Assembly: GCA_030622545.1 (NCBI GenBank) | Contig: JAUXGA010000018.1 | Span: 1-36,354, forward strand | Origin: a bacterium | Lineage (GTDB): Bacteria > Electryoneota > RPQS01 > DYHQ01 | DNA: 36,354 bases | Direction: 5' to 3' | Shown: positions 11,680 to 19,744 of the stretch, in pieces | Layout of the letters: each line of letters begins with the position of its first letter | Numbering within the stretch: the first letter of the stretch is position 1 | Position numbers and translations under genes: made by a program | The notes under the pieces: model-generated | What the model was told of the DNA's origin: nothing | The model's input: the letters and a program-made list of their open reading frames with translations, nothing else | Database searches by the model: none

Positions 11680-12684
11680 ATGAACTATTGGCAAATCGCA
11701 TCAGGATCTCGCGGAAGAGAGTATACGGATCAATTCATCCGTTTCGGTATGGCCTTTGTAGGCGGAGATGACAATGTAGCCGCAATGTCCAAAGTGAAAG
11801 AAGGAGACCGCGTCTTATTAAAGCGGGGCATGTACAAAATTGTAGCTGCTGGTGAGGTCATTAATCGTGACGGAAGATGTCGAGGTCAAGATGATAAAGA
11901 ATGGCTGCGTGATTTCGATGGTTGGGACTTGCGAGCATATTGCTTTGTGGATTGGCACGAACCGGATAAGCCGTTTGAAACCGAGGGACTTACACGCGCT
12001 ACAATCCAGCGCGTAAAAAAGAAGAATTTGAAAGAAATTTGTGATAGCATCATTAAGACAGTACCTGCAAAAGAAAACTATGATCCTGAACCGGAAACGC
12101 CTGAGCCTGTGGAAGATGCGGAGATTTTAAGTTTTCTCATTCAAGAGGGACTTCGCCCTGCATCCGCTGAAGACCTAACAGCTGCATTCAACCGAATTCG
12201 ACTATTAGCGAAATACTATTACGATGAACATACGTGGGAAAATATTCGAGAACATGAGACGCGTACATTCTTGATAATCCCTCTTCTACTTGCTCTCGGT
12301 TGGGCAGAACAGCAGATAAAAATTGAACTACCTGTTGCTGAACGCCAAAGGGCGGATATCGCCTGTTTTTCAAAACCTTACCAAGGGAATAATGATGATT
12401 GCACCTTGCTCATTGAGACCAAAGGTTTCGTTAAGGGCTTAGACTATGCCCAGGCTCAGGCAAGGGAATATGCCAAGCATTTCCCCAATTGTCAGGTAGT
12501 TCTTGTTTCGAATGGCTATTGCTATAAGGCATTTCGCCGCAATGAAAGTGGATCCTTTTCGCGAGCACCTTCGGCTTACCTAAACTTACTGAAACCAAGG
12601 AAACGGTACCCTCTTGATCCTAAAAACGTTGATGGCAGTTTGGAGGCACTTCGACTTCTCTTGCCTTATCATTTTGCACGTTAG
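11680..12684 (+). CDS. Fusion of a PUA/EVE-like domain with a PD-(D/E)XK nuclease domain
   Basis: The 334-residue protein has two parts. Residues 1-~115 (MNYWQIASGSRGREYTDQF..., MSKVKEGDRVLLKRGMYKIVAAGEVI) look like the PUA/EVE-type fold that in modification-dependent restriction proteins reads modified bases. The aromatic N-terminus and the KEGDRV turn are typical. Residues ~145-334 match the nuclease core of HsdR-N / type I R-subunit-like proteins: a helical stretch ending TRTFLIIPLLLALGW, then the catalytic pattern D226 (RADIACF), E246-x-K248 (LLIETKG). There is no helicase or ATPase partner and no methylase next to it. TAGGAG at 11668-11673 fixes the start. A role in defence against modified foreign DNA is an inference. 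Confidence 0.75.
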   Translation: MNYWQIASGSRGREYTDQFIRFGMAFVGGDDNVAAMSKVKEGDRVLLKRGMYKIVAAGEVINRDGRCRGQDDKEWLRDFDGWDLRAYCFVDWHEPDKPFETEGLTRATIQRVKKKNLKEICDSIIKTVPAKENYDPEPETPEPVEDAEILSFLIQEGLRPASAEDLTAAFNRIRLLAKYYYDEHTWENIREHETRTFLIIPLLLALGWAEQQIKIELPVAERQRADIACFSKPYQGNNDDCTLLIETKGFVKGLDYAQAQAREYAKHFPNCQVVLVSNGYCYKAFRRNESGSFSRAPSAYLNLLKPRKRYPLDPKNVDGSLEALRLLLPYHFAR

Positions 12685-13647: not shown

Positions 13648-14310
13648 GTGGTGAATCGCTTTTCAGAAGAAGATAAAGGGGTGACCAGATTATTGGAAAA
13701 AGTAAAGCGACTTTTTAAAATAGAGCAATGTAGCTACGAGTGGAATCAAGTGGAGAGCATAGTTGTACGAGATCCGGAACTATTCGAGTCAGGCCTTAAG
13801 AGAGCATCACAACGACTTTATGTAAAAGATACACCGAAAAATGAGCGTTTAACATTATGGATGGCATGCAATATTTGTGAAACCTTAGAAAAGGCTCCAC
13901 GCTGCTATTTCTGTTCGCGTCAATTGACACGTGATAACTTTATTAACGACGGCGTCTGTGTTCCTTTGGAGCATTTTATTCCAAGAGATGATGGTGGAAG
14001 CCATACACCCGCAAATCTAACACTGGCTTGCAGAATCTGCAATTCGATAAAAAGCAATCTTACTGATGATGATTTTCGTCTAATTCTGAAAAGTCCAGAC
14101 AACTTTTTTGCTCTAAAGAGACAGAGAGTTACACCCGAAAAGAAGCAAGAATTAATCGATTTTGCTGAAATATATTACCCAAGAATAAGTAATCTTCGTG
14201 ACTATGCGGTTCGCCATGGTATTGATCCTATAGATGCAAGAAAACACTGGGAGAACAAGCAGTCAGAGTTTCGAGACAAGTATCCAATGGATGCACAAGC
14301 TGTTCGATAG
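13648..14310 (+). CDS. HNH-endonuclease-domain protein
   Basis: The 220-residue protein carries a zinc-binding HNH domain: C86-x2-C89 (CYFC), E108-H109 in PLEHFIPRDDGG, N123 in ANLTLAC, and C128-x2-C131 (CRIC). Two CxxC pairs coordinate structural zinc, and H109 and N123 fit the catalytic ββα-metal core. The N-terminal ~80 residues are helical with no known domain, and the C-terminal ~70 are charged and helical. Start is GTG at 13648 or the adjacent GTG at 13651, and the ribosome-binding site is poor. The gene is clearly more AT-rich than its neighbours and sits alone between the DUF2520 gene and porX, which suggests transfer. A homing-type, phage or defence nuclease are all possible. Confidence 0.85.
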   Translation: MVNRFSEEDKGVTRLLEKVKRLFKIEQCSYEWNQVESIVVRDPELFESGLKRASQRLYVKDTPKNERLTLWMACNICETLEKAPRCYFCSRQLTRDNFINDGVCVPLEHFIPRDDGGSHTPANLTLACRICNSIKSNLTDDDFRLILKSPDNFFALKRQRVTPEKKQELIDFAEIYYPRISNLRDYAVRHGIDPIDARKHWENKQSEFRDKYPMDAQAVR

Positions 14311-14336: not shown

Positions 14337-15899
14337 ATGCCGGATAACCGCAGAATTTTATGGGCGGATGACGAAATCGAGATGCTTGAAGCTCATATTC
14401 TTTTTTTGAATCAGCGCGGCTACGACGTGGTGGGTGTGACGAATGGAGATGATGCGATTCATCGGGTGAGCGAAGAAGCTTTCGACGTGGTTTTTCTTGA
14501 CGAGCACATGCCGGGTCGTGATGGTCTCGAAACTCTCGCGGTTATTAAGGACATGCGGCCAGATTTACCGGTGATTATGATTACCAAGAGTGAAGAAGAA
14601 ACGCTGATGGAAGAAGCCATTGGCGCAAAAATCAGCGATTACCTGACCAAGCCGGTGAATCCGACACAAATCTTGAGCGCATTGAAGAAAGTAACGCAGC
14701 GGCAGGAATTCGAGCGACGAAGCGCCACGCGAGATTATCTTGCGGAATTCCGTCAGATTTCCGAGAAGGTTTCCGAAGGCCCGACGTGGAAAGACTGGAT
14801 GGATATTCATGCGAAGCTGTCTGCGTGGGAAGTGGAACTGGACTCGATGCCGGATACAGGTTTGCGCCAGTCCCTCGAAGGTCAGCGGGCGGAATGCAAT
14901 ACGGAGTTCGGGAAGTTCATCGAAGAGAATTACGAGGATTGGCTCTGGGACCGCGCTGACAAACCACCGCTTTCGGCAAGCTTTGTGGAACATTTCGTTG
15001 CGCCGAAACTGAAAGAAGGGCGTAATGTTCTCTTTCTGGTGATCGACTGTTTGCGCTTTGACCAGTGGTTGGCTTTGGAGCCGATGCTCTACGATTACTA
15101 TACGGTGACGCGAGACAGTTATTATTCCATTCTTCCGTCGGCAACTCCCTATGCGCGCAATGCTCTTTTCGCTGGTATTTTTCCGGGAGACATTGAGGCG
15201 GAATTTCCGGACTTGTGGAAGCGGAGTGAGGACGACGAGTTTTCATCGAACCGTTTCGAACGGCAATTTCTCGACCGACAGCTTGATCGGCTTCAGTTGA
15301 AGATCGAGCCTGAGCCGAAATATGTTAAGATTTTGGATATCGATGAAGCCAACGCCACCGCTCGGAAAGTGCAGCGTTATTTCAACAACCGGCTGGTGTC
15401 GATGGTTTTCAATTTTGTGGATATTTTGGCTCACAGTCGCGCGCAAAGCGATGTCATCAAAGAGATAACGCGCAATGAAGCGGCTTACCGCAGTGTGGTT
15501 CGCGCATGGTTCGAACATTCGTCGTTATTCCAAATCCTGAAAGCTTTTGCTCAGCGGGATTTTTTGGTCATCGTCACTACGGATCATGGTTCTATTCGTG
15601 GTTTGAAAGGTGCGCGGGTTGTTTCGGATAAGGAAGCGTCCACAAATTTGCGCTATAAACACGGACGCAATCTTCGCGTGGACAGCAAACATGCGCTTAT
15701 TTGCCGGCGTCCGGAGAAATTCCGACTGCCTCGACGCGGTCTCAACGCCAATTATATCTTCGCCAAGGAAGCCTACTATTTTATTTATCCCACGAACTTC
15801 CACAAATACGCGAATCTCTATAAAGACTCGTTCCAGCATGGCGGGATTTCTTTGGAAGAGATGATTCTGCCGGTGGCATTTTTGGAGCCGAAGAGATAG
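14337..15899 (+). CDS. porX: PorX-type response regulator with PglZ domain
   Basis: In Bacteroidetes PorX controls the type IX secretion system together with the kinase PorY. Residues 1-~120 form a complete receiver: acidic pair D11/D12, phospho-acceptor D55 (VFLDEHMPG), T83 and K105 (YLTKPV). A helical linker follows (~120-225). Residues ~230-520 form the PglZ/alkaline-phosphatase-superfamily domain with the metal-binding D237 (LVIDCLRFDQW), probable nucleophile T270 in LPSATPYARN, D416-H417 (TTDHG) and H501 (FQHGG). The 520-residue length matches PorX. No DNA-binding domain is present. A ribosome-binding GGAG precedes the ATG. No porY, por structural gene or sigma factor gene is adjacent, although porX is also scattered in other T9SS genomes. 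It implies that this lineage secretes proteins by T9SS. Confidence 0.93.
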   Translation: MPDNRRILWADDEIEMLEAHILFLNQRGYDVVGVTNGDDAIHRVSEEAFDVVFLDEHMPGRDGLETLAVIKDMRPDLPVIMITKSEEETLMEEAIGAKISDYLTKPVNPTQILSALKKVTQRQEFERRSATRDYLAEFRQISEKVSEGPTWKDWMDIHAKLSAWEVELDSMPDTGLRQSLEGQRAECNTEFGKFIEENYEDWLWDRADKPPLSASFVEHFVAPKLKEGRNVLFLVIDCLRFDQWLALEPMLYDYYTVTRDSYYSILPSATPYARNALFAGIFPGDIEAEFPDLWKRSEDDEFSSNRFERQFLDRQLDRLQLKIEPEPKYVKILDIDEANATARKVQRYFNNRLVSMVFNFVDILAHSRAQSDVIKEITRNEAAYRSVVRAWFEHSSLFQILKAFAQRDFLVIVTTDHGSIRGLKGARVVSDKEASTNLRYKHGRNLRVDSKHALICRRPEKFRLPRRGLNANYIFAKEAYYFIYPTNFHKYANLYKDSFQHGGISLEEMILPVAFLEPKR

Positions 15900-15977: not shown

Positions 15978-16979
15978 TTACGATTTACCTCGCTCGCGTT
16001 TTAATTTCAAGCCGTGTTTCGTCATGACGCGGCGAATCTTTTGCTCGTTCAAGCCGACGATTTTAGCGGCGCGGGATTGATTTCCGTCCGTCACTTCCAG
16101 AGATTTTTTCACCAGCGCAAATTCGATTTCGCCCAAGACGGAATCCAACCGGACCGGCTCGCCTCGGAAGATTTTTTCGTAGAGACCCTTGAGGAAACTG
16201 CTGGGGTCCCCCGCCCGTTCCACCTGAAACTGCGAATGGATAATCTCCGGATCGAATTCCCCATCCGAAAGCACCATGACACTTTCGACATGGTTGCGCA
16301 TTTGTCGCGCATTTCCCTGCCAGTTCACTTTCATGAGCAATTCCATGTAGTGATAGGGAATCACCGGTTTTGCGATCTGTTCGCGCTCACAGAATTCTTC
16401 CAAGAAGATGCTCGCAAGGAAGGGGACATCTTCCATGCGTTTCCGCAGCGCCGGTATGCTGATGGGCAGGGTATTCAAATGATAGAAGAGATCCTGGTGG
16501 AACGCGGGTCTCTCACCATCCTCCTGCAATCCCGATGAGGTGGAGATAATGCGAAAATCATTGGGGATCCGCCGACCGCCCGAGCGCCGTTCCACGTAAC
16601 CTTCTTCGAGAATCTGCAGCAATTTATGCTGTGCGATTGGAGTAAGCTCATCGACTTCTTCAAGAAAGACTGTTCCTCCGGCCGCTTCTTCGAATTTACC
16701 GGGGCGGTTATAGAAATCGTCTCCATAGAAAACGTATTCGACCTGGTCCGGAGTCACCGCTGCGCAATTGATGCTGACGAACGGCTTATCCTTTCGCGGG
16801 CTGTTATGGTGAATCACACGAGCCACGAGGGACTTGCCTGTCCCTGTTTCCCCGGTGATAAAAACAGCACTGTCCGAGCCGGCACACTTTCTGATCTTAT
16901 CCATCAAGCTCTGCATCGCACGGCTGTGAGCAATCAGGGTGCTATAAGCGTAGCGATGTTTCTTGTCAATTTTCGCCAT
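15978..16979 (-). CDS. Sigma54-activator-like AAA+ regulator lacking the GAFTGA loop
   Basis: The 333-residue protein is the AAA+ plus Fis-type helix-turn-helix part of the NtrC family, with no sensory domain. Walker A is GETGTGKS (43-50). Walker B reads GGTVFLEEV, with Glu in place of the usual first Asp. Between VFYG and GKFEEA only seven residues (DDFYNRP) replace about fourteen, so the sigma54-contacting GAFTGA loop is gone. In the segment usually FRxDLYYRLN both arginines are His (FHQDLFYHLN), removing the usual arginine finger. The C-terminal helix-turn-helix (DGNQSRAAKIVGLNEQKIRR) looks intact. I start at the ATG at 16979 because AGAGG lies just upstream. The ATG at 17000 is possible. 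It is probably a DNA-binding regulator independent of sigma54, as with TyrR. It is the last gene of a four-gene minus-strand unit. Confidence 0.88.
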   Translation of the reverse strand: MAKIDKKHRYAYSTLIAHSRAMQSLMDKIRKCAGSDSAVFITGETGTGKSLVARVIHHNSPRKDKPFVSINCAAVTPDQVEYVFYGDDFYNRPGKFEEAAGGTVFLEEVDELTPIAQHKLLQILEEGYVERRSGGRRIPNDFRIISTSSGLQEDGERPAFHQDLFYHLNTLPISIPALRKRMEDVPFLASIFLEEFCEREQIAKPVIPYHYMELLMKVNWQGNARQMRNHVESVMVLSDGEFDPEIIHSQFQVERAGDPSSFLKGLYEKIFRGEPVRLDSVLGEIEFALVKKSLEVTDGNQSRAAKIVGLNEQKIRRVMTKHGLKLKRERGKS

Positions 16980-18015
16980 TTTCAGAACCTCTTTGCGCAT
17001 GAGCTAGATTGTTGTTAAGGGTTGTATTTCTTATGTCTCTTCTTCGAGAGACTGTTCGATAGGAGTCTGTTTTTCCGGAACCGCCTCGAGGATTTCGGAG
17101 GGAGACTTTTCCTTGCGGTGCGTCAAGGAATATCCGCTTCGCAATCGCTTTCGAATTAAAGAAATTCCCGCGAATAAAGCGATCAAAAAAACCAGCGCGA
17201 CGGCCAATAAATGGAACAGCAGAAAGAATTTGGGATTCATAAAATGCTCCTGCAGCTTGTGATAGGAAGCGTAGTCTCATGACAAACGTTCCTGCAATCA
17301 AAAGGAGTGTGCCCATTGCCGCATACTGCGAAATCGTGAAGATCGAAAAATTCGTCGCATTTGCAAAGTTATAAAGAATCTCAAAAATCACGAACAGGCT
17401 AAACCAAAACATTAACGTGTCCACATAGACCGCGGTTGCTTTATCAGAACTGAGTTTTATTACAAAAAAGGTGCCGACCGCGGATAAGGATAAGAAGTTG
17501 ACATAAGCGGCACGTATAAACAACGGTTGGTAGTAGAGCGCGGGATCGCTCGCTTGAGATGCAAGTGCCAACGCTCGCGGGTCGATGTAATACGGGTAAA
17601 AAGCGACAAGCCAGACCGGTAAAACAATCGCCAGTGTCAGCATCATTCGCCGTAATAGAGACCAATCCGCGAAGATATACTCCATGAGGACATAAACGAC
17701 TGTCCAGCAGACAAGGAGTGGAAGCAACATCGTCGAATAGACGTAAAAATCAGACTGTAAGTAAGGATTTGAAAAAAGACCCGAAAATACCTGCAGTGAA
17801 ATGATAATCGTGAAACCCGTGAACAGCAACCACATTTGATAAAAAACGCTCCTGAAATGCTGTTCTCGTCGCAAAACCAGAACAGCCAGGAGCGATAACA
17901 AACCGTACAGCATGTTGTTAACTAAAGACTCAGTCGAAAAACCGAATTTCCCTGCAACAAATACTGCTGAAAGGGTTAGGGCTGCAATAAAAAAGATGTA
18001 GATCCGAGCAAACAT
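16966..18015 (-). CDS. Eight-helix membrane protein, reading frame probably extended by a frameshift
   Basis: Residues 1-~255 contain eight hydrophobic helices, including FARIYIFFIAALTLSAVFVA, LLPLLVCWTVVYVLMEYIF, LTLAIVLPVWLVAFYPYYI and MGTLLLIAGTFVM, ending in RLRFLSQAAGAFYE. This resembles membrane sensory modules with 7-8 helices that sit in front of kinases, but no kinase domain follows. From about residue 259 (base 17240) the frame overlaps the 69-residue gene in another frame and then the start of the AAA+ gene. The tail is basic and patternless, with GGSGKTDSYRTVSRRR. Either an indel near 17240 removed the natural stop, or the overlap is genuine. I trust the protein only up to about residue 258. 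Confidence 0.7.
   Translation of the reverse strand: MFARIYIFFIAALTLSAVFVAGKFGFSTESLVNNMLYGLLSLLAVLVLRREQHFRSVFYQMWLLFTGFTIIISLQVFSGLFSNPYLQSDFYVYSTMLLPLLVCWTVVYVLMEYIFADWSLLRRMMLTLAIVLPVWLVAFYPYYIDPRALALASQASDPALYYQPLFIRAAYVNFLSLSAVGTFFVIKLSSDKATAVYVDTLMFWFSLFVIFEILYNFANATNFSIFTISQYAAMGTLLLIAGTFVMRLRFLSQAAGAFYESQILSAVPFIGRRAGFFDRFIRGNFFNSKAIAKRIFLDAPQGKVSLRNPRGGSGKTDSYRTVSRRRDIRNTTLNNNLAHAQRGSENGEN
17031..17240 (-). CDS. Single-helix membrane protein with acidic tail
   Basis: The 69-residue protein has one strong transmembrane helix (FFLLFHLLAVALVFLIALFAGI, residues 5-26), then a basic cytoplasmic flank (RKRLRSGYSLTHRKEK) and an acidic tail (EAVPEKQTPIEQSLEEET). An AGGAG site sits 6 bases before the ATG at 17240. 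The pattern is so regular that I take this frame as real, although the upstream 8-TM frame remains open across it. Function unknown. It lies between the 8-TM protein gene and the AAA+ regulator gene. Confidence 0.7.
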   Translation of the reverse strand: MNPKFFLLFHLLAVALVFLIALFAGISLIRKRLRSGYSLTHRKEKSPSEILEAVPEKQTPIEQSLEEET

Positions 18016-18071: not shown

Positions 18072-18266
18072 TTACTTCCTCGGGGGAGGAGGTGGTGGCG
18101 GAGGATACGGGTTAAAAGCCGAAATCCCCTGCTGAACAACTTGTTGTTCAGCAGCAATCGGTGGATTCGATCCGTCCGCTAATGCCTGTGTCGTCAGCGC
18201 CCAGCCGACGCAAAATAGTACAAAAAGTCCTGCAAAAACAAGCAGCAAGGTGCCTCTCCGCAACAT
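18072..18266 (-). CDS. Tiny exported protein with polyproline tail
   Basis: The 64-residue protein starts at the ATG at 18266, which has GGAGG about 8 bases upstream. An in-frame TTG at 18281 is less likely. It begins MLRRG, followed by a hydrophobic stretch (TLLLVFAGLFVLFCVGWAL) and a possible cleavage or anchor boundary at TQALADG. The C-terminus is NPYPPPPPPPPRK. It could be a processed exported peptide or an anchored protein with a proline-rich extracytoplasmic tail. First gene of the unit that continues with the 8-TM, 1-TM and AAA+ genes. Function not recognised. Confidence 0.6.
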   Translation of the reverse strand: MLRRGTLLLVFAGLFVLFCVGWALTTQALADGSNPPIAAEQQVVQQGISAFNPYPPPPPPPPRK

Positions 18267-18311
18267 CGCTTGTTCCTCCAATTAAATGGATGAAGAAATC
18301 TCTTGATTTTC

Positions 18312-18329
18312 ACCCCCGATTAGGGGGGT
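18312..18329. repeat. C/G-run hairpin in the leader of the minus-strand unit
   Basis: ACCCCC (18312-18317), loop GATTA, GGGGGGT (18323-18329). Read on the minus strand the left flank is AGACCCCCCTA, the same word as at 13010-13020, so the two may be members of one repeat family. Its position in a ~180-base leader could affect expression. Confidence 0.5.
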
Positions 18330-18445
18330 CTGTTTTCGTGCAAATGAAAGATAATAAATATCTTTTCGAAATGCAAGAGAAATCGAGAAATATTCGAGAC
18401 CCATTTGTCGGAACAGAGTATGTTGAGAGGCAACTCTGCAACGAA

Positions 18446-18598: not shown

Positions 18599-19744
18599 AT
18601 GACTCCATCAAAGAAGTTATCGACTCGAGCTTCATCGAGAGGCATCAAGGAGAGGCACATTCTGCTCGTTCGAGCGGCGCCTGATCTTGTTGCCCATGCC
18701 TCCTCTCTGAATCATCTTGAATGGAAGATTAAAGAAATCAAAGCGTTACCTGAGAAGGAACAGGCCTTCATGGCAGTGGTGGATGGCCAGAATATTGAGC
18801 TTAAAGAGTTTGAAAACAAGATATTGAACCATCTAACCGTCTACCTGAACCCCCGAAAAACATCCCCAAAGAGCTTGCCCTCAGATCCGCACTTCATCTA
18901 TTCGGAACGGGAGCAATTTCTTAAAACAGATTTTCAGTCTTTACTAAGTCTTTTCGGCGGCATCAATGAAAAGCTCATGCTTTTAGGGGGAATCGAAGAG
19001 AAATACCGTCTTCTGATGCGTCAAGCGCAACTTGGCAAAGCACTCCAGAGTATTGTCCACAACGTCAACAATCAGCTTGCGCCAGTTTTGGCTGTTTTGG
19101 AAACTCTGCAGAAAGAAAATGTGCATTTGCGAGACCTCGCCATGATTTACGAGCAGTGTCAGCGGATTCATTCTGATTTTGCGAATCTGCTTCGGGTTTC
19201 GCGGCGCGGCCTCGCTAAGGAAGTTTCTGGTTTTGATTTGAACGCGCTGATTCGTGAAGAATTGCGATTGATGATGGGAGCGGATCCGGTTCTGCAGTTG
19301 CGGGTGGTTTGCCATACGCAATTGGATACAGAGCTGCCGCCGCTCTATGGAATTTACAATGATTTCAGCCATAGTTTTATCAATTTGCTTCGGAATGCGG
19401 CCAGCGCGATGGCTCATACAGAGAATCCTGAACTGACGATACGAACAGGTCAAAATGCGAAGAACATCTGGCTTGAGGTGGAAGACCGGGGCATCGGAAT
19501 TCCCGAGCAATTCCTCAAAGATATTTTCAAGCCGTATGTCAGTTCGCGCGAACGTCGTGAGGGTCAAGAAGATTCCGGCCTTGGTTTGGGGCTTTCCTCA
19601 TCGAAGGAACTACTTGATAAATACAAAGTAAAATGGGAGGTTAAGAGCCGCGTGGGAGTCGGAACCCGATTTGTGCTGAAATTCCCGCGCGAAAAGATAT
19701 GCATCCCGCCGGAAGATACTCAACCGGGGGATAGACGAGAATGA
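18599..19744 (+). CDS. Soluble sensor histidine kinase
   Basis: The 381-residue protein has no membrane helix. Residues ~20-85 ([11 protein letters not shown]...[11 protein letters not shown]) may be a degenerate receiver-like domain without the acidic pocket. The phospho-acceptor H154 is in [17 protein letters not shown], the HNVNNQL form of the H-box. The ATPase domain shows the N-box ([14 protein letters not shown]), G1 ([10 protein letters not shown]), F-box-like IFKPYVSS and G2 ([13 protein letters not shown]). The gene overlaps prfA by 4 bases (ATGA), an unusual partner for a kinase. No response regulator is adjacent. porX at 14337 is the only receiver protein in the window, and a functional link is possible but unproven. 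Confidence 0.9.

Follow-up and report, generated by a model that had tools for sequence, protein, structure and literature searches.

A set of four genes has been retained throughout most of an order of uncultured bacteria and may constitute an undescribed peptide-signalling system. The window, which is the whole contig of 36,354 nucleotides analysed here, belongs to the genome G000 and carries one copy of the set (Table 1). The genes follow in the order precursor peptide, eight-helix membrane protein with a small transmembrane (TM) gene inside it in the +1 frame, and a sigma54-activator-like protein (pseudo-bEBP). The original prediction concerned the last of these; the repeat-peptide precursor, the overlapping small gene and the lid as the most conserved part of the pseudo-bEBP go beyond it. 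Comparative sequence analysis documents the gene set, the anatomy of the precursor, and the motif losses of the pseudo-bEBP, and it shows that the repeats and the two overlapping frames are under selection.

We compared 39 genomes of the phylum, 13 from the order of the window and 26 others. The order comprises the family of the window, f1 (G000 and G001), and one other family, f2 (G002-G012). A profile of the membrane protein matched 12 of the 39 genomes, all within the order. In all 12 loci the precursor gene lies directly upstream of the membrane-protein gene, at a distance of 44-79 nt (starts were chosen by us). The pseudo-bEBP gene follows the membrane-protein gene in 11 loci; in G007 and G011 the contig stops before the gene is complete. 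The contig of G009 ends inside the membrane-protein gene, and the lid pieces of G009 and G007 are found on other contigs. Searched as a DNA pattern, the lid motif has exactly one match in 12 of the 13 order genomes and none in the 26 others. The order genome G008 (80% complete) has neither the membrane protein nor the lid motif. A homologue of one and the same divergent gene, assigned to the RF-1 family by Pfam in the window, is found upstream of the cassette in 12/12 loci. A pattern scan of one genome per species in 84,980 species returned six loci, corresponding to six members of the order, and was not exhaustive, as 12 loci are known. A search of viral contigs found no relatives, leaving viral carriage unsupported. 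The cassette looks like an old, vertically kept locus, present once per genome. Because of this vertical inheritance, co-variation of the peptide and the membrane protein is not separable from phylogeny.

Table 1. Features of the cassette in the window.
Feature	Position	Strand	Basis
Precursor peptide; hydrophobic leader and C-terminal ISAFNPYPPPPPPPPRK; single copy in the window, 1-6 copies in relatives	18072..18266	-	ORF comparison; leader by eye
Orphan membrane protein of 349 aa with eight long helices by prediction; inner loops and tail are conserved	16966..18015	-	Pfam, profile, AF2, conservation
Predicted small protein with one TM segment (69 aa in the window); read in the +1 frame within the 3' end of the membrane-protein gene	17031..17240	-	Synonymous resampling
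Pseudo-bEBP; AAA+ domain, lid, Fis-type HTH; 333 aa from ATG 16979	15978..16979	-	ORF, Pfam, alignment, AF2, Foldseek
Candidate palindrome AAGATA-N5-TATCTT, upstream of the cassette	18348..18364	.	Genome-wide occurrence in G000 and G001

Several neighbouring genes were observed. In the f1 loci a histidine-kinase gene lies between the cassette and the RF-1-family gene; in the window it occupies 18599-19744 (+) and has a HATPase_c domain, and G001 has a homologue at the corresponding position, whereas none of the f2 loci does. On the other side, convergent with the pseudo-bEBP gene, 14337-15899 (+) encodes a response regulator fused to a PglZ domain, which we take to be a PorX-like architecture. 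Also near the cassette are an HNH endonuclease (13648-14310, +) and an ORF with a weak HSDR_N_2 match below its cut-off (11680-12684, +).

The pseudo-bEBP frame is open over 15978-17000, with the likely start at 16979 and a product of 333-340 aa. Pfam assigns Sigma54_activat (133.7 bits), AAA_lid_14 (50.6) and HTH_8 (27.7). There is no N-terminal sensor, receiver or ligand domain. Motifs were aligned with those of ten canonical activators from the window's own genome. Walker A is intact (GETGTGKS). Walker B is FLEE, whereas all ten canonical proteins have DE. In the loop, YGDD-------FYNRP (7 gap columns) stands where the ten have GAFTGA, GSFTGA or GAFTDA. The arginine-finger segment is FHQDLFYHL against the canonical FRxDL(Y/F)(Y/F)R; the second His is absent even from the nearest relative, G001, which has FQRDLFFRL. 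The original prediction had described the intact Walker A, FLEE, a loop shorter by about 7 residues and His at both finger positions, so that the parts needed for sigma54 remodelling (GAFTGA loop, Walker B DE, arginine finger) are missing or altered. It was also right that the protein has no sensor domain and is associated with membrane proteins: its gene lies 3' of the membrane-protein genes on the same strand, and these belong to the same unit. RpoN is encoded in the genome, and an AF2 model built from six sequences (pLDDT 74.1) has its best Foldseek matches in AAA+ proteins of the NtrX, ZraR and PspF type, namely NtrX, ZraR, DmpR, FlrC, FleQ, NtrC1 and PspF. Two of the canonical activators of this genome, L002 and L008, have GAFTDA in place of GAFTGA.

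The same losses are shared by a clade. A search of 61 genomes found the nearest homologues of the pseudo-bEBP in f1 (G001, 77% identity) and in f2 (35-42%). When ten cassette members and 30 canonical proteins were placed in a tree, the former grouped as a single clade with support 100/100 (G007 was omitted as too short, and the bootstrap is not fully settled). The GAFTGA-loop deletion, of 7-9 residues, is present in 11/11 aligned members. The first arginine-finger Arg is lost in 10/10 members, and the second is kept in 5/10, the window not among these. Walker B is EE in G000 and G001, and the acidic pair is lost in all eight f2 members with this region. The P-loop Lys is replaced by Arg in 2/11 members. 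A nucleotide-gated switch, one of two roles originally proposed, is thus doubtful for the clade; for the protein of the window it is possible. Between G000 and G001, dN of the pseudo-bEBP is 0.15 with dS saturated; dN/dS of the HTH part is 0.03, that is, strong purifying selection. A single decayed pseudogene is ruled out by the clade and by purifying selection.

The HTH is present in the window, where it had been judged to look fine, and in G001. It is absent from all nine readable f2 C-termini, seven from genes whose C-terminal end is complete and two from C-terminal fragments (G007 and G009); the gene of G011, cut by the contig end, is outside this count. Downstream of the seven f2 loci searched, the only match of the HTH profile was antisense and no better than chance (E 0.27); G010 has little downstream sequence. 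The lid is hyper-conserved and is the most conserved part of the protein: in ten cassette sequences, 32 of its 70 columns are invariant, whereas the ATPase core has 18 such columns out of 158. In the ten canonical activators of the genome the figures are 9/70 for the lid and 25/159 for the core.

The other role originally proposed was that of a DNA-binding regulator. In its fuller form, a bEBP would have become a regulator of the sigma70 type, like NtrC of Rhodobacter and Caulobacter, VpsR and TyrR, the latter being a further GAFTGA-less bEBP that acts at sigma70 promoters. The purifying selection on the f1 HTH and the palindrome at the operon, unique in the genome, agree with this. However, f2 keeps the cassette without the HTH (9/9), and therefore DNA-binding regulation is at most an added role in the family of the window. 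Given this absence from f2, DNA binding is not what the clade as a whole has conserved. As an account of the cassette we consider this model improbable, while its DNA-binding part fits G000 and G001. Precedents exist: excerpts of PMC10274813 describe GAFTGA-less bEBPs acting at sigma70 promoters (NtrC of R. capsulatus and Caulobacter, VpsR), and an eight-residue loop-1 deletion in Caulobacter NtrC. The pseudo-bEBP resembles these, as far as the excerpts describe them, in the AAA+ fold, the similar size of the loop-1 deletion and, in the window's family, the HTH. Unlike them, it has no receiver or ligand domain, its Walker B and arginine finger are changed as well, the HTH is absent in f2, and it is fixed together with a peptide and membrane proteins.

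The palindrome starts 96-98 nt before the precursor in both f1 genomes, and neither genome has a second copy. The ten f2 upstream regions contain at best sites with 2 (G004) to 4 mismatches. It is likely that the f1 pseudo-bEBP autoregulates its operon at this candidate site; with two related genomes, the evidence is thin. Nine of the ten f2 operons are preceded by a sigma70-like promoter, TTGAC[AT]-N17/18-TAT[AT]TT, and 0-8 of 100 shuffles score as high. The promoter score is not above shuffles in G000 (73 of 100), G001 and G005 (16 of 100 each). The candidate f2 promoters suggest steady expression rather than a switch. A search with a narrow consensus found no sigma54 site within 230 nt upstream in any of the 12 loci; sigma54 control of the operon was rejected on this ground and on that of the sigma70-like f2 promoters. 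Two other elements were observed. At about 18310-18335 (-) the f1 leader may form a G+C hairpin whose arms differ between the two genomes but match, CCCCC/GGGGG in G000 (by eye) and CCCGCCT/AGGCGGG in G001. Seven of the ten f2 upstream regions (L060, L061, L063, L064, L065, L067, L068) share a block AATATAGCCA, at most 1 mismatch being allowed, some 300-320 nt ahead of the start of the precursor. The divergent RF-1-family gene perhaps has its -10 region here.

The membrane protein is an orphan. Ten members had no Pfam match better than E 0.07, and two had no NCBIfam match at E 1. The AF2 model from seven sequences (pLDDT 73.8) has eight long helices. Among the first 50 Foldseek matches, almost every entry is a GPCR or a designed GPCR-like fold, with the best E only 8.5e-3 and TM about 0.4-0.5. 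VIA gave Z of about 13-14 over 214-242 residues, covering helices 2-8, a value that helical bundles can reach by chance. Thus the modelled likeness to GPCRs is weak; the matches are not proof of the fold, because they may reflect helix bundles in general and the many GPCR entries. The ORF has no kinase domain. HisKA_7TM (PF16927) is absent from the Pfam matches of the 10 members up to E 10 and has 0 matches in G000; an origin from this family has no support from the Pfam searches, although a remote kinship is conceivable. The topology was assigned by us from positive charges, with loops 2, 4, 6 and the tail inside. With this assignment, conservation in ten sequences is 0.70 for inner segments, 0.55 for the membrane and 0.41 for outer loops, and 18/91 inner columns are invariant versus 3/38 outer ones. 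A variable outer face and a fixed inner side would be expected of a receptor, and are no proof of one.

The 3' end of the membrane-protein gene contains an ATG-started ORF in the +1 frame in 11/11 loci (the gene of G009 is cut). It has 45 aa in eight loci and 47, 69 or 88 aa in the others. The f2 core of the small protein is M(N/S)PNAYL...ALFYGVFLIR(K/R)RLAxGYSL; Pfam had no match at E 0.001. At third codon positions of the long frame there are 0.62 differences per site upstream of the overlap and 0.31 within it. The synonymous-codon difference is 0.33-0.40 in the overlap; ahead of the overlap it is 0.43-0.68, and beyond it the values, from few pairs, are 0.79 and 0.56. In synonymous resampling of the long frame, all 11 small ORFs were open in 0/5000 trials, with a maximum of 8; this null takes the 11 related genomes as independent and is therefore generous. 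The observed similarity of the small proteins is 2.83 versus at most 0.84 in 5000 resamples, and their hydropathy is 2.43 versus at most 1.51. The internal ATG is weak evidence, as YE codons yield it in a mean of 6.2/11 loci per resample and in 11/11 in 3/5000. In the reverse test, where the small protein was kept, the long-frame similarity of 3.33 was reached in 0/5000 trials (maximum 0.65) and openness in 1. Chance or by-product origin of the small ORF is ruled out by resampling in both directions, and both frames look coding.

The precursor ORF encodes 55-107 aa in 12/12 loci and consists of a hydrophobic leader, assigned by eye, and 1-6 proline-rich units. The last residue is Lys in 11/12 loci; the precursor of G006 ends in KT. 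There are six units in G005, four in G002, G004 and G010, and three in G003 and G006. The other six loci, the window included, have a single unit and no repeat. The unit peptides differ among species, including inside each of three genera. In the repeat cores of the six genomes, synonymous divergence is 0.27-0.80 per site versus 0-0.046 non-synonymous, the latter being biased to zero as units were picked by an exact or near-exact regular expression. By genome, synonymous divergence among the copies is 0.68-0.80 per site in G002, G003, G004, G005 and G010, and 0.27 in G006. For whole periods in five genomes (G004 omitted, as its spacers vary) the values are 0.31-0.77 synonymous and 0-0.077 non-synonymous. 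A parallel change of the repeat copies in G002 and G005 was considered, but synonymous differences are as large within these genomes as between them and do not decide for or against it. The core is kept despite diverged synonymous sites, and comparison of the copies demonstrates selection on the units. A genome-wide DNA pattern, which covers the unit type of four genomes only and does not include the poly-Pro types, matched cassette units in those 4/12 genomes and 11 other places; the backwards control matched 16.

The leader ends in ...SHA|ALSPVL in G002 and ...SYA|ALTPVV in G005. By the cleavage rule of signal peptidase, the cut would fall after ...SHA and ...SYA, and the first unit would therefore have the same N-terminus as each later unit. 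One alternative is that the proline-rich ORF is a ribosome-stalling leader peptide which controls the downstream genes. Some members do have runs of 7-8 prolines, and the next gene is 44-79 nt away. On the other hand, several members have only PP pairs (VIPIIPPR in G004, GIIPIIPPVPGGK in G012), the hydrophobic leader is present in 12/12 loci, and as many as six copies preserve the core. We regard stalling as very improbable.

A different role for the whole set is conceivable: the peptide might be an envelope component or an antimicrobial, the eight-helix protein might serve export, processing or immunity, and the pseudo-bEBP might be an assembly or regulatory factor. Proline-rich repeat precursors do exist for antimicrobial peptides such as apidaecins, and an orphan membrane protein is equally compatible with a transporter or a protease. 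However, bacteriocins are patchy in distribution, whereas this cassette looks vertically kept, with one locus per genome beside the RF-1-family gene in 12/12. Conservation of the membrane protein that is highest on the inner side and the lack of Pfam and NCBIfam matches in the members scanned also speak against such a role. This explanation seems to us unlikely.

The cassette could instead be a dedicated peptide-signalling module, with a peptide signal, a kinase-less receptor and the pseudo-bEBP as relay; we put the chances of this at about even. For secretion, processing, binding of the peptide to the receptor, contact of the receptor with the lid, and output, we infer the following from sequence. 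The precursor would be exported by Sec and its leader removed by signal peptidase, in G002 and G005 likely exactly at the start of a repeat unit. There is no protease gene in the cassette; proteases would free one to six short, proline-rich, Lys-ending peptides of the ALTPVVPPQPGK type. The eight-helix protein and the small TM protein, made from its own gene, would sense the peptide on the outer face, and the conserved inner loops and tail of the former would relay the state inward. The pseudo-bEBP would take the signal through its lid and act by partner binding, with no remodelling of sigma54. In f1, where it has the HTH, a further probable role is the tuning of its own operon through the palindrome.

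This plan has partial parallels. The alpha-factor precursor of yeast consists of a leader and tandem proline-containing units with basic residues, and Ste2 is a many-helix receptor. The plan of precursor and many-helix receptor is similar, by analogy only; the cassette is bacterial and has no G protein, and the GPCR likeness of the bundle is below significance. Peptide-sensing membrane histidine kinases of the AgrC, ComD and ComP type share with the cassette a multi-helix membrane protein beside a precursor gene, but the membrane ORF here lacks a kinase domain and has no HisKA_7TM match. The RRNPPA systems of Firmicutes (Rap, NprR, PlcR, AimR) use secreted propeptides, and in some of these the mature peptide is present up to six times, according to excerpts of PMC9765709 and PMC11343458. 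The predicted secreted propeptide of the cassette, with its up to six copies, is similar to those in the excerpts. In contrast to the cytosolic TPR receptor described there, a membrane protein and a pseudo-bEBP are found here, in another phylum and with Lys-ending proline-rich units. The Pfam matches listed for the proteins of the cassette include no TPR family.

A search of titles and beginnings of abstracts of open-licence papers found no description of such a cassette. What appears to be new is the combination of a repeat propeptide with a GAFTGA-less bEBP, which did not appear in that search; in the excerpts cited, each is known separately (PMC9765709 and PMC11343458 for the former, PMC10274813 for the latter). 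Going further, the cassette might represent a new class of cell-cell signalling, ancestral to the order: species-specific pheromones, often in tandem, a kinase-less receptor of heptahelical type whose own gene also encodes a subunit in a second, overlapping frame, and a pseudo-bEBP relay in place of a histidine kinase or G protein. This broader proposal is tentative, and we put it at somewhat less than even chances.

The repeated propeptides that we found described, in the same excerpts, are those of Firmicutes with cytosolic receptors, and a version with a kinase-less membrane receptor would be a new route from peptide to gene control. The overlapping small gene offers a clean, testable case of dual coding. 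If the proposal is true, the cassette shows what may become of a bEBP after loss of the parts that remodel sigma54, with the lid as its working surface.
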